Shown here in pieces: positions 1,234 through 64,000 of a stretch of 64,000 bases of DNA. A program made the translations under genes and the position numbers. This stretch comes from Pectobacterium punjabense. GTDB lineage: Bacteria; Pseudomonadota; Gammaproteobacteria; Enterobacterales; Enterobacteriaceae. The stretch covers positions 3,720,001 through 3,784,000 of the forward strand of contig NZ_CP038498.1 of assembly GCF_012427845.1 (NCBI RefSeq), given 5' to 3'. The notes below the pieces were generated by a model. That model was not told the DNA's origin and made no database searches. It saw only the letters and a list, made by a program, of their open reading frames with translations. How positions within the stretch are numbered: the first letter of the stretch is position 1; each line of letters starts with the position of its first letter.

Positions 1234-4029
1234 ATGACCAAATACAGTCTTCGTGCACGGATGTTGATACTGATTTTGGCACCAACGCTGATGATCGGGC
1301 TGTTGCTCAGCTCGTTCTTCGTTATCCATCGTTACAATCAGTTGCAGTCGCAGTTGGCCGATTCAGGCACCAGCATCATCGAACCACTGGCAACCATCAG
1401 CGCCTATGCCATTACCCATCGCCAGATGGACACAATTCCTGCGTTAATCAATACACTTCATCGCCGCCACTCCGCGATTATTCGTACCATTAGCGTATTC
1501 GATGCCCGTAATCAGCTACTAGCCACCACTAATGTACGCAATAATGTGGCGTTGCAGCCGCTCAGCAGCGATGCGCTTTCGTACAATAAGCTGCATCTGC
1601 ACCACACGAGTGATGCGCTGATTCTGCACATGCCGATAGTTAACGACAGCGAATTCATGCCTGGCGGGGGAGCCCCCCTATTCCCTGGTACAGCGACACC
1701 TCTCGGCTATCTGGTCATTGAGCTGGATACCAGTACCATTCGGCTTCAGCAGTATCAGGAAATCTTTATCGCCGCGCTCCTACTGCTGTTATCGTTGGGT
1801 GCAGCCGTTGTCTTTGCCTATCGTCTGATGCGCGATGTCACCACGCCAATCCGTAATATGGTGGATACCGTCGATCGTATTCGCCGCGGGCAGTTGGATA
1901 GTCGGGTGGAAGGCTACATGCTCGGCGAGCTAGATATGCTGAAAAATGGCATTAACTCAATGGCTATGTCGCTGACCGCCTACCACGAAGAAATGCAGCA
2001 AAACATCGATCAGGCGACCTACGATCTGCGAGAGACACTGGAGCAGATGGAGATCCAAAACGTTGAACTGGATCTCGCCAAAAAGCGGGCACAGGAAGCC
2101 GCACGCATCAAGTCCGAGTTTTTGGCGAATATGTCACATGAACTGAGAACGCCACTGAATGGCGTGATCGGTTTCACCCGCCAGACATTGAAAACCCCAC
2201 TGAACACCACCCAGACTGACTATTTGCTGACTATCGAGCGATCTGCCAATAACCTGCTAAATATTATTAACGATGTACTGGATTTCTCTAAGCTGGAGGC
2301 CGGAAAGTTGGTGCTGGAGGATATTCCATTCTCCCTGCACAGCACGCTAGACGACGTTGTGATGTTGCTGGCACATACGGCACATGAAAAAGGGTTAGAG
2401 CTGACGCTCAGCATTCAGAATGACGTTCCTGAACAGTATGTCGGCGATCCGCTACGGATACAGCAGATCATCACTAACCTGCTGGGCAATGCGATTAAAT
2501 TTACCGAACAGGGCAACATTGACATTCGCGTAGAGAAGCGGCGGCAGGAGCATCATCAAATTCAGCTAGAGGTGCAAATACGCGATACTGGCATCGGTAT
2601 CGCCGAATTGCAGCAATCGCAGCTGTTTCAGGCTTTCCGTCAGGCTGACACCAGTATTTCACGTCGTCATGGCGGCACAGGGCTTGGGTTGGTCATCACT
2701 CAGCGTCTGGTCAAAGAAATGGGCGGCGATATCAGTTTCCAAAGCCAGCTCAACAAAGGCTCGACCTTCTGGTTCCACATCACGCTGCCGCTCAATCCCC
2801 ACGCCATACCAACCGAACCGGCCTATACGATGCTGCAAGGTAAACATCTGGCCTACGTGGAGTACCATCCTATCGCCGCACAGGCTACGCTGGATATCCT
2901 GAGCCAGACGCCGCTTATCGTGAGCTATAGCCCGACGTTTGAGCAACTGCCGGAAGGGGAATTCGATATCCTGCTGCTCGGTATTCCCGTGCAATATCGC
3001 AACTCTCTGCTCGACTACACGCCCAGACTGCGCGATATCTGCCGCCGTGCGCCTTGCGTCATTCTGGCACTACCCAGTCTGGCGCAAATGGATGCCGAGC
3101 AGTTGAAAACTTTCGGCGTACATGCCTGTCTGAGCAAGCCGCTTGCCTCATCACGCCTGTTGCCACTACTACAGGACAGCACGCTGTTCCAGCTCTCTTT
3201 CCTGCCGAGCGACACCGCAGCGAACCAGAATGCACTACGCCACCCAGCTCGTCTGCCGCTGAGCGTGATGGCGGTAGATGACAACCCCGCAAATCTGAAA
3301 CTGATCGGCACACTGCTGGAAGAACAGGTCGATACGATTATCCTGTGCGAAAGCGGAACAGATGCGATTGCACAGGCGCAAATACATCAGCTCGATATTA
3401 TCCTCATGGATATTCAGATGCCGGGCATGGACGGTATTTGCGCCAGCGAACTGATCCGCCAGATCCCTCATCATGCTACGACGCCCATTATCGCGGTGAC
3501 TGCGCAGACCATGACGGGTGAACGCGATCATCTATTGCGCTCAGGTATGGATGACTATCTGGCTAAACCGATAGACGAGCAAATGCTGAAAAGCGTGCTG
3601 ACACGTCATGCCCGAAAAAATCCGTTGAAGCGCGATCGAGGCGATATTACACGTCTGTTGAACGAGCACGATGATAGCCAACTGTCACTTGACTGGGCAT
3701 TGGCACAGCAACAGGCCGCTAACAAGCCGGAGCTGGCGCGTGACCTGTTACAAATGCTGCTGGATTTCCTACCGGAAGTACGACGAAAGATCGAGAACGT
3801 ACTCAACGGTCAGACGGATGACGACATTATTGAACTGGTTCATAAACTGCACGGCAGTTGCAGCTACAGCGGCGTCCCACGTCTGAAGCGCATCTGTCGC
3901 TATCTGGAACAACAACTGCGTAAAGGCGTTCACGCCAGCGATCTGGAACCCGAATGGCTGGAGCTACTGGACGAGATCGACAATGTCAACAAAGCCGCCC
4001 AGCCGCATATCAATCCCATGCATTCGTAA
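1234..4029 (+). CDS. barA: Hybrid sensor histidine kinase BarA (ExpS/GacS type)
   Basis: Inner-membrane tripartite sensor kinase. With its response regulator (UvrY/ExpA/GacA) it activates Csr/Rsm small RNAs and, in soft-rot bacteria, exoenzyme and virulence genes; that role is family knowledge. The 931 residues show a transmembrane segment near the N-terminus, a periplasmic region, a second transmembrane segment near 180-200, HAMP, a HisKA H-box ([11 protein letters not shown], phospho-acceptor H302), HATPase_c, a receiver domain ([12 protein letters not shown]726) and a C-terminal HPt domain (HKLHGSC, H873). E. coli BarA is 918 residues with the same layout. The start is the ATG matching the E. 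coli N-terminus (MTKYSLRAR). A 7-bp hairpin follows the stop. Confidence 0.97.
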
Positions 4030-53886: not shown

Positions 53887-54339
53887 TTATGCTTCAGCAA
53901 CAACAACGACATTCAGTTCAGCAAAGACATCGCTGTGTACCTGGAAGCTCACTTCGTGCTCACCCAGAGTACGCAGAACGCCGTTCGGCAGGCGAACTTC
54001 GCTCTTAGCGATTTCAACACCGGCAGCCGTTACCGCATCAGCGATATCGCGAGTACCGATGGAACCGAACAGTTTACCTTCGTCGCCTGCTTTAGACGCG
54101 ATGGTAACGCTACCCAGTTCTTTGATCTTAGCGGCGCGAGCTTCAGCAGCAGCCAGAACGTCAGCCAGTTTGGCTTCCAGTTCAGCACGGCGTGCTTCGA
54201 AGAACTCAACGTTTTTCTTAGTTGCCGGCACAGCTTTGCCCTGCGGAACCAAGAAGTTACGAGCATAGCCCGCTTTAACGTTTACCTGATCACCCAGGCT
54301 GCCCAGGTTTGCTACTTTATCAAGCAGAATAACTTGCAT
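53887..54339 (-). CDS. rplI: 50S ribosomal protein L9
   Basis: 150 residues. The N-terminal RNA-binding domain ([13 protein letters not shown], then [13 protein letters not shown]) is joined by a long helix to the C-terminal domain (about 80-150). GAGGATAAAGTA precedes the ATG. It is last in the rpsF-priB-rpsR-rplI operon. Confidence 0.99.
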
Positions 54340-54380
54340 TACTTTATCCTCTCAAAGTCTCGTTAATGGACAGTGGCCGA

Positions 54381-54933
<553 letters not shown>

Positions 54934-54938
54934 AACAA

Positions 54939-55400
<462 letters not shown>

Positions 55401-55512
55401 GTATGTGTGCGGCTGAAAAAATGACGCGTAAGTATAGTGCTCGACATTAAAGAACACAAGGAAGAAACACAGGAGTTTTCTGCGTGGTGATATTTCAGCG
55501 TTAGGAGCAAAA

Positions 55513-56265
55513 TTACAGCGTCCGCTGGAAGAAATCAGCCCCCGCCTGCAACGCCGTCGGCGTAATACGATGCGCCACACCTGGCTCGGTCAAATACGTC
55601 AGATTAGCAAGTTGCTCGCGCGCCTGTAATGCCTGGTGGAGACGTGCGCTTTCTGCCGCAGGCACGACATCATCCGCCTCACCATGCCACACAAACAACG
55701 GCCGACTGGACAGTGCCTCCAGCCGCGTGGTGACATCATAATCAGCGAGCTGGGCCGCTAACGCCTGCAACACCGCCTGATTCTCTTCGCGATCGGCCGG
55801 AACCGGAGGAAATAGCGTTGAGGATAACGTGGAGAAGTAGCCAGAACCCATAAATGCCGCCACCGCCGTAATCCAGGGATAGCGCGCCATGCACCCCAGT
55901 GCGCTCATTCCGCCAAGTGACGCGCCGCAAACGCCAACCCGTTCCCCGTCGATCAGACCACGTTGCCGATATTCCGCTACATAACCAGGAAGTTCTTCAA
56001 TATTCGATCGCAGGATATCCCAAAAATGACGCAACCGCTGCGCTTCATCCCCGTCATAACGGGCACCATGCATGGCAGCATCGGGTAGAATCACTCTGAA
56101 TCCAGCCTGAGCCAGCGCATAGCCAAAATACGAGTACACCTCTTTTGACGAGCAGTAACCGTGGAAGAAAAAAATCGTCGGCAGAGGCTGTTCCTTTCTT
56201 CCCGCAGGCACCGCATGAATCACATCTATACCGCTGCCGAGTTTATCCAGTGACATTTCAACCAT
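55513..56265 (-). CDS. yjfP: Alpha/beta-hydrolase (esterase) YjfP
   Basis: 250 residues, carboxylesterase. It has the oxyanion region FFFHGYCSSKEVYSYF, the nucleophile elbow GASLGG, an acidic residue in HGEADDVVPA and the catalytic His in GVAHRITP. It matches E. coli YjfP throughout. The natural substrate is unknown. It ends the conserved backbone block before the accessory region. Confidence 0.9.
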   Translation of the reverse strand: MVEMSLDKLGSGIDVIHAVPAGRKEQPLPTIFFFHGYCSSKEVYSYFGYALAQAGFRVILPDAAMHGARYDGDEAQRLRHFWDILRSNIEELPGYVAEYRQRGLIDGERVGVCGASLGGMSALGCMARYPWITAVAAFMGSGYFSTLSSTLFPPVPADREENQAVLQALAAQLADYDVTTRLEALSSRPLFVWHGEADDVVPAAESARLHQALQAREQLANLTYLTEPGVAHRITPTALQAGADFFQRTL

Positions 56266-56480
56266 ATTTCCCTCGTATTCCGTTCTGTCAGCACACTTTT
56301 ATGTAGCGAAATCGTATTTAGCAACAAGGTCACAACCTTTTACGATAAACCCGCTCACAATAATCTTCCTATCTCAGTAATGTTATTAATTTCATGCTTA
56401 TTTAAGCAGCGCATTTATGTAAATAAAAAAATTGCATTGATCCAGATCAATTACTGAAATGGATATTTACACTCCGTGAT

Positions 56481-56507
56481 TAAATTTTTTTTATTTACTG
56501 CCGTTAA
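56481..56507 (+). promoter_or_regulatory. Sigma-28 promoter of the Cache-domain MCP gene
   Basis: TAAATTTT (56481-56488), an 11-base spacer, GCCGTTAA (56500-56507), against TAAAGTTT-N11-GCCGATAA. Transcription would start near 56515, so the coding start must lie downstream. Confidence 0.75.
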
Positions 56508-56559
56508 CGCATGTGAAGTAAGACTAAAAAATAACCTTTTTATTATAAGAGACACACAT

Positions 56560-58500
56560 ATGTTGGGACTTTCCTTTAAGCACTGGGGTTTGGGTATCAA
56601 GTTATCAATTATCGCCTCCCTAAGCGTGGCGATATTGTTCATAGCTTTCACCCTTACTCTTACCCGCTCCGCAGGCGATCAACTAAAATCGTTGACCCTC
56701 AATGACATGCAGAGCCAGGTGAATGGAGTCACCGACATGATCAACATGTACGATACCAGCCTACAAGCCGAGGTCAGCAACTATACGCGGCTGCTAGCGA
56801 GCTTTCTGCCGACGCGGTTTTCACTGGATACCGTTAACCGTATCCCTTTCGGCAACACACCTCAGCCGACACTAAAGGCTGGCGATACGGTATTGAACCT
56901 TAACACCGAGGTGACGGATGACTTTCTGAGCCGTACTCACGCAATCTCAACAATTTTCGTCCGCGATGGAGAGGATTTTACGCGCATCACTACTTCACTG
57001 AAGAAAGAAGATGGATCGCGCGCAATGGGCACCAAACTCGATCGTGAAAGCCCGGCCTATGCACTTGTCATGAAAGGTGAAACTTACAGTGGGTTAGCAA
57101 CGCTGTTCGGCAAACAGTACATCACCCAGTATCAGCCGATACGCGATAGTGAAAACAAGGTCATCGGTATTCTGTTCGTCGGCGTCGATATCACGAAGCA
57201 ATTTACCGAGATGCAACACACTATTCTGAACAAGAAAATGGGTGAGACAGGCCATTTCTTTGTCCTTAGCACGAAAAAAGGAAAGGATGCAGGTAACTAC
57301 CTTTACCACCAAAGCAATGCCAACCAACGTCCTGACTGGTCAGAAGGTGCATTAGAGAAAGTGCTGGCAACCGGTAATGGTACGATCGAATACGACAACA
57401 ACACGATGACGGGCGAAGAGAAAACCCGGATCATGGTGTATCGCAGCATTCCGCAGTGGAACTGGATTGTTGCAGGCACGGTGAGTAAAGAAAGCTTAAT
57501 GGCAGAGATTAATCATACCCGTAACCTGTTCTTAGGCGGCGGTATTATTCTGGTTCTGCTCTTCGCTGCATTCTTTGTCGTGCTAACGCGCAAATGGCTG
57601 AGCCAGCCGCTGGTTGAAATCGTCAAAGTGGCAGAACAATTTTCTGCCGGTAACCTGACGGCCACGCTTTCCAGCAACCGGAGCGATGAAGTGGGTCGCT
57701 TGATCGATGCGATTAACGGCATCGGGCAGGGGTTAACGACTATCGTGTCGCAGGTAAGAAGCTCCTCTGAGGAAATCAGTGCCAGCACCGATGCGCTTGC
57801 CGCTGATAGTGAAAATATCAGTGAGCAGATTGCCCGTCAGGCCAGCAGCGTCGAAGAAACCTCTGCCAGCATGGAGCAGCTCTCCGCCAGCGTGAAGCAG
57901 AATGCCGATAATGTCTCCGCCGCCAAAGATCTGGCAGAGCAGAGCGCAGCGGCGGCACGCAACGGCAGCCAGACCGTCACCGACTCGGTTTCTACGATGA
58001 GTGACATCAAAAATTCATCGCAGCGGATCGCCGATATCACGACGGTGATCGAATCTATCGCTTTCCAGACCAATATTCTGGCGCTTAATGCTGCCGTAGA
58101 AGCCGCTCGCGCGGGCGAGCACGGCAGAGGCTTCGCCGTGGTTGCTGCTGAAGTGCGCGCGCTGGCACAGCGCAGTTCTACTGCGGTGAAAGAGATCGAA
58201 AGCTTGATTGATGAGTCGCTGGAAAAAATCGAAGCGGGCTACCATTTCTCAGAAAAAACGCAGGCGGTAATGGACGACTTACGTAACCGCATCCTGCAAG
58301 TCAGCACCATCGTGAACGATATTGATATCGCCTCACGCGAGCAGTCCGCCGGTATCAGCCAGGTAAACATCGCGATTGTACAGATTGGTCAGGCAACGCA
58401 GGAAAACGCCATTCTGGTCAACAATTCGGAAGACACGGCGCAGAGTCTGCGTCAGAAAGGCCACCACCTCAGCGAGCTGGTCAGCGTCTTCCGTATTTAA
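56560..58500 (+). CDS. Methyl-accepting chemotaxis protein with Cache-type sensor
   Basis: 646 residues. TM1 is about 12-32, followed by a large periplasmic domain (about 35-320) of the double-Cache kind ([54 protein letters not shown]), then TM2 about 322-343, HAMP and a signalling domain with tip [20 protein letters not shown]. The frame is open to 56476, but the sigma-28 promoter at 56481-56507 lies inside that extension, so the ATG at 56560 is the start. Double-Cache receptors often bind amino acids or small organic acids; the ligand is not predictable here. Confidence 0.93.
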
Positions 58501-58510
58501 CATCCACCCA

Positions 58511-58707
58511 TACCCTAAATAATTCGAGTTGCAGGCAGGCGGCAATCGCACGAATCCCCAAGAGCTTACATAAGTAAGTGACTGGGGTGACAAATCTGCC
58601 GGGAGCAGATTTGAACGCTGCTTGCAGCGGCCCTTTAGGGCGAGGCCCACGACGGGCCGAGTATTTAAGAGAAGCCAACGCACATGCAGCTTGAAGTATG
58701 ACAGGTA
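58511..58707. repeat. 197-bp dispersed palindromic repeat with inverted ends
   Basis: The ends TACC...TTCGAGTTGCAGG and, inverted, TACC...TTCAAGCTGCATG are imperfect inverted repeats. The body contains AAGAGCTTACATAAGTAAGTG, GGGCGAGGCCCACGACGGGCC and GAAGCCAACGCACATGCAG. I recognise this as an abundant non-coding repeat of Pectobacterium and related genera, here in a longer form with an internal GC-rich insert (about 58591-58672). Confidence 0.6.
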
Positions 58708-58801
58708 TAGCGGCCATCAAAGGTATTGCGCGATGGCCGCCACTTAAGTATTATGCCGACGTTTTTTCACCCATCCCCCCACTGACAAAGGAGACGACAT
58801 C

Positions 58802-58846
58802 ATGACAACACTTACTCTGATTCTTTGCAGGACATCTCGGGACTAA
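58802..58846 (+). CDS. Possible 14-codon leader peptide upstream of rtcB-prfH
   Basis: ATG to TAA encodes MTTLTLILCRTSRD. AAGGAG (58788-58793) is 8 bases before the ATG, a near-ideal ribosome binding site and stronger than that of the following rtcB gene. It could be a leader peptide, or the remains of a longer gene broken by a stop. Speculative. Confidence 0.35.
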   Translation: MTTLTLILCRTSRD

Positions 58847-58929
58847 TTCCGCATTCTTTTCCGCTTTGCGTTATCCCCCCAGCTGTAGCCTGCCTTACCC
58901 TATTTTTAAATTGATCAGCAGGATGATCT

Positions 58930-60051
58930 ATGGGCAATGCTATTCGCTCTATTTCGGCGCGCGTCAGTGTGATCGCGACGGAAAATACCTGGATTGAAGA
59001 TAAAGCAATCCAACAGCTTCAAATTACCTCACAGCTTCCCGATATGGTACGTGTGGCCGGTATGCCAGATTTGCACCCAGGCCGCGGTTACCCCATTGGG
59101 GCAGCATTTTTTTCACAACAGCGCTTCTACCCCGCTCTGGTTGGAAATGATATCGGCTGCGGCATGGCGCTATGGCGCACTGGCCTGAACGCCAACAAAA
59201 TTTCGCTGGATAAGCTGGAAAAACGGCTTGGCAATATCGATGGGCCACTAGAAGACGATGACAATATTCCACCCAAGCTGGCAGATTTCCGCTATTCGCT
59301 GGGCACCATCGGCGGCGGTAACCACTTTGCAGAATTGCAGCAGCTTGATGAAATTTATCAGCCAGATACGCTGCACGATCTGCGCATTGATCCTAAACAA
59401 CTGCTGTTGCTCGTGCATAGCGGCTCACGCGGATTAGGACAAACCATACTGGAAGCCCACGTGCGGGAATTCGGTCATCAGGGTCTTGAAGCCAACACAC
59501 CAGCCGCAGAAGCCTATCTGGCACAGCATCAGTTTGCGCTGACGTTTGCCACCCACAATCGGCGACTGATCGCTCAGCGAATGCTGGAACGTTGGCATAC
59601 GGAAGGCGATGCCGCACTGGACGTGAACCACAATCTAGTGACACCGACAACGATTGAAGGCATTTCCGGCTGGCTGCACCGCAAAGGCGCGACACCCGCC
59701 GACTGCGGCCCGGTTATCATCCCCGGCTCACGCGGCGACTACAGCTATATCGTCCAACCTATCCCTCACGCCGACAGCCTGTATTCACTGGCACATGGCG
59801 CGGGGAGAAAGTGGATGCGCACGGAGTGTAAAGATCGTCTGTCTTCACGTTACAGCGTCCAGCAACTGGCGCGTACTCGCTTCGGCAGCCGCGTAATTTG
59901 CCAGGACAGGCAGTTGATTTTTCAGGAAGCCCCGGAGGCCTACAAACCGATAGACAGCGTGATTGGCGCGATGCAGCAGGCGGGATTAATCACGCTGATT
60001 GCACGCCTGAAACCGGTGCTCACCTATAAAACGCGCGGGGAGGATAAATGA
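58930..60051 (+). CDS. RtcB-family RNA ligase (RtcB2 type), partner of PrfH
   Basis: 373 residues, shorter than the general E. coli RtcB (about 408). RtcB joins 2',3'-cyclic phosphate (or 3'-phosphate) and 5'-OH RNA ends using GTP and Mn. Visible metal ligands are D74 and C77 (NDIGCG), H132 (GGGNHFAE), H163 (VHSGSRG) and H234 (DVNHN); H289 (AHGAGR) is the expected guanylation site. It begins [25 protein letters not shown], as in the family. It overlaps prfH by 4 bases (ATGA), and no rtcA or rtcR is present. This arrangement defines the rtcB2-prfH module, reported to mend 16S rRNA cut at the decoding centre. Confidence 0.93.
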
Positions 60052-60671
60052 TATTACTTCAACTTTCTGCCGCGCAGGGACCGGACGAATGCATGCTCGC
60101 AACGGCAAAAGCGTTACAAGCTCTACTACGCGATGCAGCACGACAAAGTATCGAGTGTGAAATTATCGAAACCGAAGCAGGGAAACGTTCCGGTACGCTA
60201 CGTTCCGCACTGGTTCTGTTAAACGGCGATCGGGCGGAACCGCTGGCTGCCAGCTGGTGCGGTACGCTCCAGTGGACGTGCAATAGCCCCTGGCGTAAAG
60301 GGGGTGGACGTAAGAACTGGTTTATCGGCGTCGCACGCTTTCATCAGGAGCAGGCGTTTGCCGATAACGAGATTCGTTTTGAAGCCACGAAATCCTCCGG
60401 TCCCGGCGGGCAGCATGTGAATAAAACCGAGTCTGCCGTCCGCGCTACCCATGTCGCCAGCGGCATCACGGTGAAAGTGCAGAGTGAACGCAGCCAACAC
60501 GCGAATAAGCGTCTGGCCTGTTATCTCATCGCCTACCGTCTGGAAACGCTACAGCAACAGCAACACGCCGAACTACGCGCGCAGCGGCGTCTGTTCCACC
60601 ATCAGATAGCGCGCGGCAATCCGGTAAAAGTCTTCAAGGGCGAAGATTTTACGCTGGTTGCTTCCCACTAA
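60048..60671 (+). CDS. prfH: Peptide chain release factor homologue PrfH
   Basis: 207 residues. A class-I release-factor catalytic domain with the GGQ motif at 120-122 ([17 protein letters not shown]), but no domain able to read stop codons (no PxT or SPF recognition loop) and a much shorter length than RF1/RF2 (about 360). The C-terminal basic helix ([18 protein letters not shown]) fits ribosome binding. Reported to release peptides from ribosomes whose decoding centre is damaged, letting the RtcB2 partner religate the RNA. Its start overlaps the rtcB stop, so the two are translationally coupled. Confidence 0.93.
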
Positions 60672-60680
60672 CCTCAACTA

Positions 60681-60707
60681 ACGGGCGGGCATCGATTGCC
60701 TGCCCGT
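60681..60707 (+). terminator. Terminator after prfH
   Basis: ACGGGCGGGCA, loop TCGAT, TGCCTGCCCGT with one mismatch, followed by GATTTTCC. It starts 9 bases after the stop. Confidence 0.65.
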
Positions 60708-60779
60708 GATTTTCCCCCTCGCTAAAGAGAGGGCTATCAGTGCGCTGAGAGCGTTCCCGTATCATCACGCAATGGCGCA

Positions 60780-61178
60780 TCAGTACGACATACACGCCGC
60801 ATTCAGAATCCCACCGCTGAGCGAAGCAGCACAGAGAAAAGCACCGGACGCAATATCGTTATTCTGGATATGTTGGCTGAGACGCGGCATATACAGGCGC
60901 ACCGCGAAATAAATCAACAGTTGCACCACCAGCGCGACCACGCCCCAGGTGATGTAATCCACGAGGCTCACCGAATTAATCGCCGCACTGGAAAGTGGAA
61001 TCACATAACCAATCAACGCCCCACCAAATCCAATCGCGGCCGTACCGTTGTTCTCTTTAATCAGCGCCCACTCATCATGCGGCGTAACGCGGGTATAAAT
61101 AAACAAAAAGGCCAGCACCATGGCAAACCCGATAAAGAAATAGGACGCGAAAGCGAGTAGCGACGTAATAATAGGCAT
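60780..61178 (-). CDS. DUF350 inner-membrane protein, YjfL-like (UPF0719)
   Basis: 132 residues with four predicted membrane helices (about 5-27, 48-66, 75-97, 108-130), a repeated DUF350-type layout with EWALIKENNGTAAIGFGGALIGY in the loop/helix 2 region. It resembles E. coli YjfL, which lies in the same general chromosomal neighbourhood. Function unknown. The frame is open to 61304; the ATG at 61178 has AAGGA 9 bases before it and gives the family length. Confidence 0.85.
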   Translation of the reverse strand: MPIITSLLAFASYFFIGFAMVLAFLFIYTRVTPHDEWALIKENNGTAAIGFGGALIGYVIPLSSAAINSVSLVDYITWGVVALVVQLLIYFAVRLYMPRLSQHIQNNDIASGAFLCAASLSGGILNAACMSY

Positions 61179-61534
61179 AGCGATATTCCTTTTAAATGAG
61201 ACACGTTGGCGCGCCAGCAATAGGTAAGGGAAAGAATGGAGAATTATAGATGATTCGTGCAGAGCAAAGCGCTTATTGATAAACAATGCAGGAATCCCCC
61301 GCACGGCGCTTTACCACTCTGGCCGTTGTATCCACACGAATATCCTCACATTGTTTGAGAAAATGAATAAGTATTGCGTCTGAAATGCCGATAACGGATG
61401 AGGCATTTTTTATCAGTGATATAGGAGTCTGTTCCACTTTCATCACCTGCCCTTTTTACACAACACACAACGACAACTAATCCGTTATTGGCCTGCTATG
61501 ACGGTAATAATTAATGAACAAAAGGAAGAAGTTT
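61179..61534. other. Intergenic region between the YjfL-like gene and the last MCP gene
   Basis: 356 bases. It holds the sigma-28 promoter at 61368-61394 and a 140-base leader to the MCP gene. The region near 61200-61320 has no recognisable feature. Confidence 0.5.
61368..61394 (+). promoter_or_regulatory. Sigma-28 promoter of the MCP gene at 61535-63070
   Basis: TAAGTATT (61368-61375), an 11-base spacer, GCCGATAA (61387-61394). The -10 box is a perfect consensus; the -35 box matches at five of eight positions. Confidence 0.7.
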
Positions 61535-63070
61535 ATGCTGCGCTGGATGTCATTTCAAAACCTGTCGGTAACACGCAAGTTATTGGTAGGGTTTGGTTTA
61601 TTGCTCATCATGGGAGTAATCCTTTCCATGGTCGGCTTTTATGGATTATACAATAGCGACCAATCATTAAAGCGCATCAGCCGTCTGGGTGCCATTTATG
61701 ACAAGACCGTTGTCGCCCGAGAAGGTAACTTTGGTTATGCGCTAGAACGTAAGGCGCAGTATCTGGAACAGCATGACAGCGCTATCGGCAATATCAGTGG
61801 AGAGCTATCAGCACTGCTGAAGGAAATTGATACGGGACACTGGCCTGCGGAAGATAAAAGCGCCATTCAGGATATCAGCGCGTCGCTCAATACCTACCTG
61901 ACCCAGCGCCAGCAGGTCATGAGCCCGGATGTCAGCCAACAGCGGCTCAGTGAATTGAACGATCAAATGGCGCTGTTGCAGGAAAATATCAATAAGCTTT
62001 ACTTCACGGAAGAGAGCCGCGCGGGCCGTAACGTCATCAGCAGCGATATTCAACTGGGCGTGATTACGCTGATTGCCATCATACTCGGCCTGACCACCGC
62101 AATTGTTATTTCACGGCAGATCGTTCGCCCATTACACCAGGCGCTACACGCGACTCGCGCCATTGCAGAAGGCGATCTCACGGTACACCTTCACAATGAA
62201 CGCCGTGATGAGTTAGGCCAGCTGATTTCGGCTATGGGGCAGATGAACAACAATCTGCACAGCATGATTGATAAAATTCGCCTCAGCGCGAATCAGATCT
62301 CCTCTGCCGCAGGGGAAATTACCGCCGGTAATGCCGATCTTTCCGTCCGAACCACGCAGCAAGCTGCTGCACTGGAAGAAACCGCCGCCAGTATGGAACA
62401 GCTGACGTCAACGGTAAAACAAAATGCCGATAACGCCCATCAAGCCAACCGGCTGGTTATGGACGCCTCTGATACCGCAAATCAGGGGGGAGAACAGGTT
62501 TCTAAAGCGGTTAATACCATGCACGGCATCGCACAGAGTTCTCACCGTATTGCTGAAATCACTTCAATGATTAACAGCATCGCGTTCCAGACTAATATTC
62601 TGGCGCTCAACGCAGCAGTAGAGGCTGCGCGAGCCGGTGAACAAGGTCGTGGTTTTGCCGTCGTCGCCAGTGAGGTACGCAATCTGGCACAGCGCAGCGC
62701 GCAGGCCGCAAAAGAGATCGATACGCTCATTGGCGAGTCAGTTTCACAGATTAATAACGGTGCGGCACTCGTTAACAGCGCAGGGAAAACAATGGAGGGG
62801 ATTGTACAGTCCGTGACACAGGTCCACACCATAATGAAAGACATTACTACCGCCTCGGACGAGCAACATCGCGGTATTTCTCAGGTCGGTCAGGCAATCA
62901 TAGAGATGGATCAGAACACGCAGCAAAATACCGTGCTGGTCGAGCAATCCTCTTCTGCCGCTCACTCGCTGGAGCAACAGGCGATCGTGCTTTCTGATGC
63001 CGTTTCTGTCTTCCGGCTTTTACATCCTTCACAGCAAGACCTTCGCAGGCTGGCAAACCCCGCGGCCTAA
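61535..63070 (+). CDS. Methyl-accepting chemotaxis protein (four-helix-bundle sensor)
   Basis: 511 residues. TM1 is about 12-33 ([19 protein letters not shown]), followed by a helical periplasmic domain of about 145 residues, TM2 about 176-195 ([20 protein letters not shown]), HAMP and a signalling domain with tip [20 protein letters not shown]. It ends [12 protein letters not shown], without a CheR pentapeptide. An upstream in-frame ATG (61514) lacks a ribosome binding site, while AGGAAG precedes the ATG at 61535; the shorter form is preferred but not certain. Ligand unknown. Confidence 0.92.
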
Positions 63071-63080
63071 CCCCAACGAC

Positions 63081-63106
63081 AGAGAGGTGCCTTATAGCAC
63101 CTCTCT
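63081..63106. terminator. Perfect hairpin between the MCP gene and rlmB
   Basis: AGAGAGGTGC, loop CTTATA, GCACCTCTCT: a 10-bp stem between convergent genes. Confidence 0.65.
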
Positions 63107-63126
63107 GCTATCAGATACGACGCTAA

Positions 63127-63858
63127 TCACCCGCGCTGGCGAACGGCTTCAAACAGACACACGCCAGTGGCAACAGACACGTTCAGTGAAGACACGCTGC
63201 CCGCCATCGGAATACTGATCAGCTCATCGCAGTGCTCACGGGTCAGGCGACGCATCCCTTCCCCTTCCGCGCCCATCACCAGCGCCAACGGCCCGGTCAG
63301 TTTACTTTGGTACAACGTATGATCTGCTTCACCCGCCGTGCCGACGATCCAGATATTACGCTCTTGCAGCAGGCGCATCGTGCGAGCCAGATTGGTCACG
63401 CTGATGACTGGCACCGTTTCCGCTGCCCCACAGGCCACCTTCTTCACCGTCGCATTCAACTGTGCCGAACGATCGCGGGGCACAATCACCGCATGCACGC
63501 CAGCGCCATCAGCATTACGCAGGCACGCGCCCAGATTATGCGGATCGGTCACGCCGTCCAATATCAACAGGAAAGGCGTTTCCAGATTGTCTAACATCGC
63601 AGGCAGATCGTTTTCCTGATATTTCCGCCCTTCTTTGACCTTCGCTACGATCCCCTGATGCACCGCGTCTTCAGCCTGCTTATCCAGCCACTGCCGATTC
63701 GCCACTTGAATGACGATACCTTGCGCTTCCAGCTCGGCAATCACAGGCTGAAGGCGACGATCGTCGCGCCCTTTCAGAACAAAAACTTCCAGAAAACGCT
63801 GCGGGTCGCGCTCAAGCAGTGCTTTAACCGCGTGGATACCGTAAATAATTTCGCTCAT
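63127..63858 (-). CDS. rlmB: 23S rRNA (guanosine-2'-O)-methyltransferase RlmB
   Basis: SPOUT-class enzyme methylating G2251 of 23S rRNA. 243 residues. An N-terminal substrate-binding domain ([16 protein letters not shown], about 1-75) precedes the knotted methyltransferase domain with [20 protein letters not shown] (about 106-125), [10 protein letters not shown] and [20 protein letters not shown]. It follows rnr on the same strand, as in E. coli. Confidence 0.97.
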
Positions 63859-63920
63859 TAATACTCTTCAAATTAACCATAACAGGCAGAGCCTGTTCAT
63901 TAGAGATAGAGGCTTACCCG

Positions 63921-63948
63921 GCTTCCTCCTCTACATCGAGGAGGAAGC
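63921..63948 (-). terminator. Intercistronic hairpin between rnr and rlmB
   Basis: GCTTCCTCCTC, loop TACATC, GAGGAGGAAGC: an 11-bp perfect stem, extendable by three more pairs. There is no T-tract on the minus strand, so it may be a processing or stabilising element rather than a terminator. Confidence 0.5.
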
Positions 63949-63961
63949 TGGCTAGTTAACC

Positions 63962-64000
63962 TTACTCAGCAGATTTTTTCTTTGCGCGTTTAGCCTTGGT
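63962..64000 (-). CDS. rnr: C-terminal end of ribonuclease R (partial)
   Basis: Only the last 12 codons and the stop are in the window (TKAKRAKKKSAE). A lysine-rich basic tail is typical of RNase R, and rnr precedes rlmB in E. coli. The identification rests on this context, since too little protein is visible for a domain match. Confidence 0.75.
   Translation of the reverse strand, partial: TKAKRAKKKSAE

Follow-up and report, generated by a model that had tools for sequence, protein, structure and literature searches.

We analysed a 64,000-nucleotide stretch of the Pectobacterium punjabense genome (the window) that harbours on its forward strand the genes rtcB2 and prfH, preceded by a predicted short leader open reading frame (ORF). 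According to the ORF reading, rtcB2 (58930..60051, +) starts with the ATG at 58930, ends with the stop codon at 60049-60051 and encodes an RNA ligase RtcB family protein of 373 amino acids. It is located directly 5′ of prfH (60048..60671, +; ATG at 60048, stop codon at 60669-60671), which encodes a peptide chain release factor H of 207 amino acids, and the two genes overlap by four bases (ATGA). These coordinates confirm the sequence-only reading, which had described an RtcB-type ligase and a release-factor homologue overlapping by 4 bases, and both proteins score far above the curated cut-offs of their families. RtcB2 reached 621.2 bits against NCBIfam TIGR03073 (cut-off 271.8) and PrfH 328.7 bits against TIGR03072 (cut-off 166.65); in Pfam they belong to PF01139 and PF00472, respectively. 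The nearest solved chain to PrfH is 7sa4, ‘Peptide chain release factor H’ (E 9.4e-81).

The motifs DIGCG, GNHF, HSGSRG, the H of (V)NHN and the H of HGAGR, expected for an RtcB ligase, are all present in RtcB2 and are common to the other RtcB of this genome and to E. coli RtcB2; we take their residues to be those that bind the metal and carry the GMP. The anticipated GGQ was found at PrfH residues 120-122. The earlier statement that PrfH has no stop-codon-reading domain did not hold, as PrfH residues 8-180 align to residues 118-294 of RF2: the stop-codon-reading region of RF2 is represented, and the missing part is RF domain 1. The absence of RF domain 1 from PrfH is also stated in PMC1586002 and PMC9223846. 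The locus thus contains a member of the prfH-linked RtcB subfamily, a PrfH with GGQ and without RF domain 1, and rtcB2 placed before prfH with overlapping ends. Judged by these features, it is a ribosome rescue-and-repair operon of known type, first described in PMC1586002. Protection against decoding-centre cleavage by colicin E3 was reported for RtcB2-PrfH of E. coli ATCC25922 (PMC9223846), and the identity of the two proteins leads us to ascribe this known rescue-and-repair role to the pair studied here. The E. coli operon combines members of both families in this order, likewise with overlapping ends, at an identity level of 63% for PrfH and 57% for RtcB2, but in an E. coli genome it occupies another chromosomal site, between yafP and pepD.

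The searched genome (4.79 Mb, one contig) encodes a second RtcB at G000:C1:548344-549471 (within locus L001, G000:C1:546844-550971), with 438.7 bits to PF01139. It is followed by an ORF of 263 amino acids, presumably an RNA-repair nucleotidyltransferase. None of the PADLOC models matched RtcB2 or PrfH. A search for the colicin-E3-type nuclease domain PF09000 gave 0 matches in the genome, but also 0 in the control genomes, and is therefore uninformative.

Distribution and genomic site of the operon

Intact prfH was found in 20 of the 25 genomes of the genus, with PrfH identities of 93-98%. The position between yjfP and rlmB, noted from the sequence alone, proved to be the same in all 19 prfH-bearing relatives that were fetched. 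Up to three of the five genomes without intact prfH contain remnants of the module: L065 retains the leader together with some 200 nt of rtcB2 and part of prfH, L063 retains 52 nt of prfH, and in L062 there was just one weak match, 24 nt long, close to the end of the stretch fetched. In the other two, L061 and L064, no remnant of the leader or the genes was found in the locus comparison. The proposed check of presence and absence between yjfP and rlmB therefore returned one site, occupied in most genomes, and losses in others. Recent mobile cargo within the genus was rejected on the basis of the 20/25 presence, the single site in 19 relatives and the remnants in non-carriers.

At larger distances, 19 of 149 genomes of the family (one per genus) exceeded the family cut-off, two of these through partial genes, and prfH was present in 44 of 394 genomes of the order, 6 of 369 of the class and 14 of 398 of the phylum (E up to 1e-45). 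From these comparisons, the module is an old inherited resident of the genus, with losses, and sporadic over long distances. The description as mobile defence-like cargo is partly supported, by this sporadic occurrence and by the different site in an E. coli genome; within the genus it fails, as the module is inherited at one site.

The flanking ORFs at 56476-58500 and 61514-63070 look like MCPs from the appearance of their sequences. The former adjoins the operon in all 19 prfH-bearing relatives fetched and therefore belongs to the usual gene order here. Stretches resembling prfH were found in 8 phage records (E up to 1e-15) and 39 plasmid records (E up to 1e-30). Positions 3035-3640 of the Salmonella phage record OR850930.1 are 61.9% identical to PrfH over 98% of the query; this 4.8-kb record carries no annotation and is filed as phage. 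A repeat is present at 58582-58720 of the window; stretches like it occur within the spacers of L102 and L121 and, in several relatives, upstream. It resembles the enterobacterial ERIC element, and Rfam matched 58582-58678 to AaHKsRNA22 below threshold (29.9 bits, gathering score 39.8). On the minus strand, at 55329-55413, the window also contains the RpsF ribosomal-protein leader RF02893 (108.7 bits).

The short ORF upstream of rtcB2

Upstream of rtcB2 we predict a leader ORF of 14 codons and a stop codon, MTTLTLILCRTSRD (58802..58846, +), which carries a strong Shine-Dalgarno sequence. Identity to the window over the 200 nt preceding rtcB2 is 93.5-98.0% in 19 relatives (for L055, 156 nt were compared), against 87.8-93.7% for rtcB2 and 86.7-91.7% for prfH, and in each of these relatives the upstream 200 nt are more conserved than rtcB2. 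The alignment of 20 sequences of the genus revealed a strong Shine-Dalgarno sequence, a 14-codon ORF, a near-invariant spacer and conservation that runs into the first rtcB2 codons. The first 19 codons of rtcB2 (58930..58986, +) are frozen at synonymous sites. Among codons of conserved residues only 3 of 17 vary in this part, versus 206 of 278 in the rest of the gene (Fisher p 4.3e-6; 19 sequences, with L046 left out for a 3-nt length difference), and no other 19-codon stretch of rtcB2 is less variable.

Leaders were also counted by a rule without hand selection, namely an ATG ORF 13-16 codons long whose Shine-Dalgarno match reaches 5 or more, located within 350 nt upstream of rtcB2. The input comprised 107 loci, of which 11 had no usable rtcB2 start; 7 of the other 96 were duplicates, leaving 89 unique loci. 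From one set of 80 loci, 16 were included (L117-L129, L131, L132 and L149), and the count excludes the more distant L130 and L133-L135 as well as L136-L148 and L150-L196. In total, 73 of the 89 unique loci had a leader, among them 72 of the 78 loci with an RtcB2 at least 50% identical, against a background of 0.019 per 350 nt of the window and of 57 in 4450 shuffled upstream regions. By this rule, the leader is absent in six close loci (L097, L122, L126, L131, L212 and L240), although the first three harbour a leader-like ORF that fails the Shine-Dalgarno or length requirement, and in 10 of the 11 distant loci. A leader-type ORF also precedes rtcB2 in an E. coli genome, Vibrio sagamiensis, Pseudoalteromonas, Motilimonas, Gilliamella, Morganella and a Neisseriaceae MAG. 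When 394 genomes of the order were searched with a strict leader pattern, matches were found in 75; for 25 of the 44 genomes with prfH, a match precedes this gene by no more than about 2 kb, and the remaining matches lay elsewhere, showing that the pattern alone is not specific. Rfam gave no match over the leader of the window at E up to 5 (54000-64000 scanned) and none at gathering scores over the leaders of eight loci.

Conserved upstream DNA of an ordinary, already known module might be merely promoter and operator. The sequence TTGCGC-17-TATTAT at 58726-58754, conserved in most of the 20 sequences of the genus, could indeed be the promoter of a leader transcript, and the fold of 58772-58990 is not unusually stable. 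However, a promoter scan of 58500-60900 found no site, TTGCGC-17-TATTAT being below its threshold, and promoter DNA would leave unexplained the fixed-length ORF with its Shine-Dalgarno sequence in 72 of 78 loci, the frozen synonymous sites at the rtcB2 start and the species-matched pairing described below. We consider this explanation very improbable.

Pairing segments of the leader RNA

Four segments with alternative pairing partners were identified in the leader RNA. Segment 1 (58782..58793, +) is the Shine-Dalgarno region of the leader, CTGACAAAGGAG, and can pair with segment 2 (58821..58832, +), the leader codons around CTTTGCAGG. Segment 2 can pair instead with segment 3, AGCTGTAGCCTGCC (58881..58894, +), which was assigned from the alignment, folds and pair counts and can also pair with the rtcB2 start region. 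The first part of segment 4 (58913..58928, +) is a predicted GATCA-GCAGGA-TGATC hairpin with the rtcB2 Shine-Dalgarno sequence in its loop, near-invariant in 20 genomes. Its second part in this genus is formed by the frozen first codons of rtcB2; the predicted fold has codons 2-8 paired to segment 3. Across species, segment 3 corresponds to a CCTGCC stretch downstream of the leader and segment 4 to the rtcB2 start region.

Segment 1 is paired to segment 2 when 58772-58990 is folded at minimum energy; a piece of the window starting inside segment 1 has 2:3 instead. The 15-codon leader of E. coli (L116) has the same segments, and its minimum-energy fold contains 1:2 and 3:4 together, with both Shine-Dalgarno sequences covered. 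None of these folds was more stable than those of shuffled sequences, so that the case rests on the comparison between species.

For this comparison, 75 leaders were hand-picked from the 89 loci; they are non-independent and fall into 41 clusters, the cluster of this genus alone holding 19. Six leaders without an anchor (L107, L119, L125, L126, L238 and L243) were dropped, leaving 69. In a swap test, the own pairing partners of 41 cluster representatives were compared with partners borrowed from other species (2000 permutations). The own partners paired better for 1:2 (z -7.3), 2:3 (z -8.1) and 3:4 (z -2.7), with 0, 0 and 10 of the 2000 permutations being as good, respectively. For the control combinations 1:3, 2:4 and 1:4 (z 0.85, 0.01 and 0.62) own partners were no better. 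Swaps within groups of 35 anchored representatives gave z values of -4.7 (1:2), -5.7 (2:3) and -3.3 (3:4), the controls again not being significant (-0.7 for 1:3, -1.5 for 2:4 and 0.6 for 1:4).

Over the 35 representatives, pairs were formed in 294 of 315 cells for 1:2, 260 of 315 for 2:3 and 202 of 256 for 3:4, a count in which three representatives lack an anchor for segment 4 and L227 seems to be wrongly anchored in segment 3. When the partners were slid by 1-3 positions, 22-59% of the cells were formed. Double changes in 2:3 amounted to 45 cells in 6 pairs, above every slide, as in GCAGGC/GCCTGC (L099), GCAGAC/GTCTGC (E. coli L116) and GCGGAC/GTCCGC (L111); L218 has a 15-base match. For 1:2 there were 10 cells in 4 pairs, with one slide near-equal (9 cells in 4 pairs). 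The 4 cells in 1 pair for 3:4 were not above the slid controls, and this pairing therefore rests on complementarity and the swap test. In summary, the between-species comparison shows the leader, its geometry, the complementarity of the segments and their species-matched pairing, and by this comparison the mutually exclusive 1:2, 2:3 and 3:4 pairings hold across species, 3:4 being the weakest.

The E. coli leader region, used as a query (L116:2800-2970), was matched in 5347 of 5426 E. coli genomes. Among 40 rows taken across the ranking, 11 had one full piece, 19 two pieces, 9 the leader part only and 1 the rtcB2 part only. In the subset measured, two-piece matches had 55 or about 128 extra bases between the pieces. 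The matches break some 20 nt ahead of rtcB2, at a point that separates segment 3 from segment 4, and the insert often parts the leader from the rtcB2 start.

The leader might also act on transcription, its translation controlling an intrinsic or Rho terminator before rtcB2. A weak terminator-like site at 58838-58851 overlaps the leader stop, and control of topAI is accompanied by premature Rho termination (PMC12121999). However, the two terminator-like sites in 58500-60900 are not above shuffled sequences (mean 2.6), none is present in region 2650-2980 of E. coli L116, and the match of segment 3 to the rtcB2 start region points to translation. Transcription attenuation is accordingly improbable in our view.

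A proposed translational switch

Across the 69 leaders with an anchor, the 2:3 half in segment 2 has its first base at +23 to +31 from the start codon (+23 to +29 in 68), and in 66 this base lies 15 or 17 nt before the leader stop; the 2:3 half begins in codons 8-11 of leaders of 13-16 codons. For ribosomes arrested on a start codon, the edge has been placed at +16 to +18 (PMC12121999). By this measure, the first base of the 2:3 half stays uncovered while the P site holds codon 1, and does so up to codons 2-5. From the ribosome footprint, a ribosome at the leader stop would cover it.

The two positions were compared in an energy model by masking the RNA under the ribosome. With the ribosome at the leader start rather than the stop, 3:4 pairing was lower in 32 of 35 representatives and the rtcB2 start was more open in 24 of 35. 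For the 28 representatives with spacers of up to 200 nt, the loss of 3:4 was 3.3 pairs versus -0.6 with scrambled leaders, exceeding the controls in 26. The copy of the window behaved differently: with a ribosome at the leader start, 2:3 reached only 1.4-2.2 pairs (4.1 in a shorter stretch) and segment 3 kept about 8 pairs with rtcB2 codons, which rose to 11.5 with a ribosome at the leader stop. In this model the window's own RNA hardly changes, and its switching is unsupported.

Leader translation could instead activate rtcB2 by coupling, which is possible for a short leader close to a gene, or the peptide itself could act. Many leaders share an MxxxxxLCR-like ending, which would suit peptide action, but their N-terminal residues differ, and the 35 representatives read the common RNA string in more than one frame (26, 8 and 1 of them), indicating that the RNA is kept and not the peptide. 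The spacer between leader and rtcB2 measures 60-295 nt in the 69 anchored leaders, and its upper lengths are long for coupling. Furthermore, a ribosome at the leader stop raises 3:4 pairing in the energy model, against the opposite polarity. We hold such mechanisms to be improbable as well.

We favour a translational attenuator, in which the leader and its exclusive pairings would switch on the operon once ribosomes stall within the opening codons of the leader, as is predicted for cut ribosomes. This is likely, with a probability of roughly 0.6; translation of the leader, the switch, its polarity and its inducer are what we infer. With the leader idle, 1:2 and 3:4 would form, the rtcB2 start would be covered and the operon OFF. 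Intact ribosomes would cross the leader and cover segment 2 at its stop, again allowing 3:4 to form and keeping the operon OFF. A cut ribosome would initiate on the strong leader Shine-Dalgarno sequence, cover segment 1 and be unable to advance. Segment 2 would then be free, 2:3 would form and 3:4 would open, so that RtcB2 and PrfH could be made. Afterwards PrfH would release the stuck peptide and RtcB2 would reseal the 16S rRNA, as reported for the E. coli proteins.

Colicin-E3-cut ribosomes initiate at about 75% of the control, form the first peptide bond 15-fold slower and are expected to make essentially no peptide beyond about 8 residues (PMC2615495). Given this reach and the start of the 2:3 half in codons 8-11, only intact ribosomes would pass. 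The leader could be dedicated to sensing ribosomes whose 16S decoding centre has been cut, acting as a ruler about 8-14 codons in length that can be crossed by intact ribosomes only; it would have been retained alongside rtcB2-prfH across the Gammaproteobacteria and in at least one genome of the Neisseriaceae. We put this forward tentatively, with the odds close to even. A broader role is conceivable, namely a general sensor of translation stress by which any drug or shortage that halts ribosomes early induces rtcB2-prfH, cut ribosomes not being special. The leader geometry needs merely a ribosome stopping within the first codons, and the toiL uORF responds to several antibiotic classes, including tetracycline and retapamulin at its start codon (PMC12121999). 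On the other hand, the genes that follow the rtcB2 leader have 16S cleavage as their known target (PMC9223846), and the length of the leader is just over the reach reported for E3-cut ribosomes (PMC2615495). A general sensor in which cut ribosomes have no special part appears unlikely to us. Sensing of general stress and of cut ribosomes may also both be true together.

Attenuators of the ermC type have four segments with exclusive pairings and a leader with its own Shine-Dalgarno sequence, and the next start is covered when OFF. The erm leaders stall on a drug together with the nascent peptide, which is conserved at the stall site. The layout of four segments and a leader Shine-Dalgarno sequence (cf. 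PMC11264731 and PMC8274638) matches the rtcB2 leader. A leader ORF with its own Shine-Dalgarno sequence, read from sequence only, and exclusive pairings were both found here. In contrast to the drug-induced erm leaders, we found no conserved nascent peptide among the rtcB2 leaders compared, as peptides and frames vary, and the predicted inducer is the broken ribosome. The toiL-topAI uORF of E. coli is likewise a short ORF at which early-stalled ribosomes free the Shine-Dalgarno sequence of the next gene (PMC12121999), as predicted for rtcB2. There, however, the uORF RNA pairs directly with the topAI Shine-Dalgarno sequence, while here a 1:2/2:3/3:4 chain lies beside ribosome-repair genes. RtcR-controlled rtcBA also represents RNA-repair genes that are switched on by RNA damage, but in that system a sigma-54 activator protein senses RNA ends (PMC12606134), whereas rtcB2-prfH would be switched by an RNA leader in cis. 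From the ORF list, no obvious regulator ORF lies beside rtcB2-prfH.

The words ‘leader’ and ‘upstream’ have 0 occurrences in PMC9223846, as does ‘leader’ in PMC1586002, and no description of a leader before rtcB2-prfH was found in the titles, abstracts and passages of the open literature searched. At this level, the protein pair is already known and the conserved leader is a regulatory layer that we did not find described. The same literature on RtcB2-PrfH leaves unexplained how cells notice a cut decoding centre and make the repair proteins while translation fails. If our reading is true, a cis-acting RNA induced by the broken ribosome itself would account for both the sensing of the damage and the synthesis of the repair proteins.
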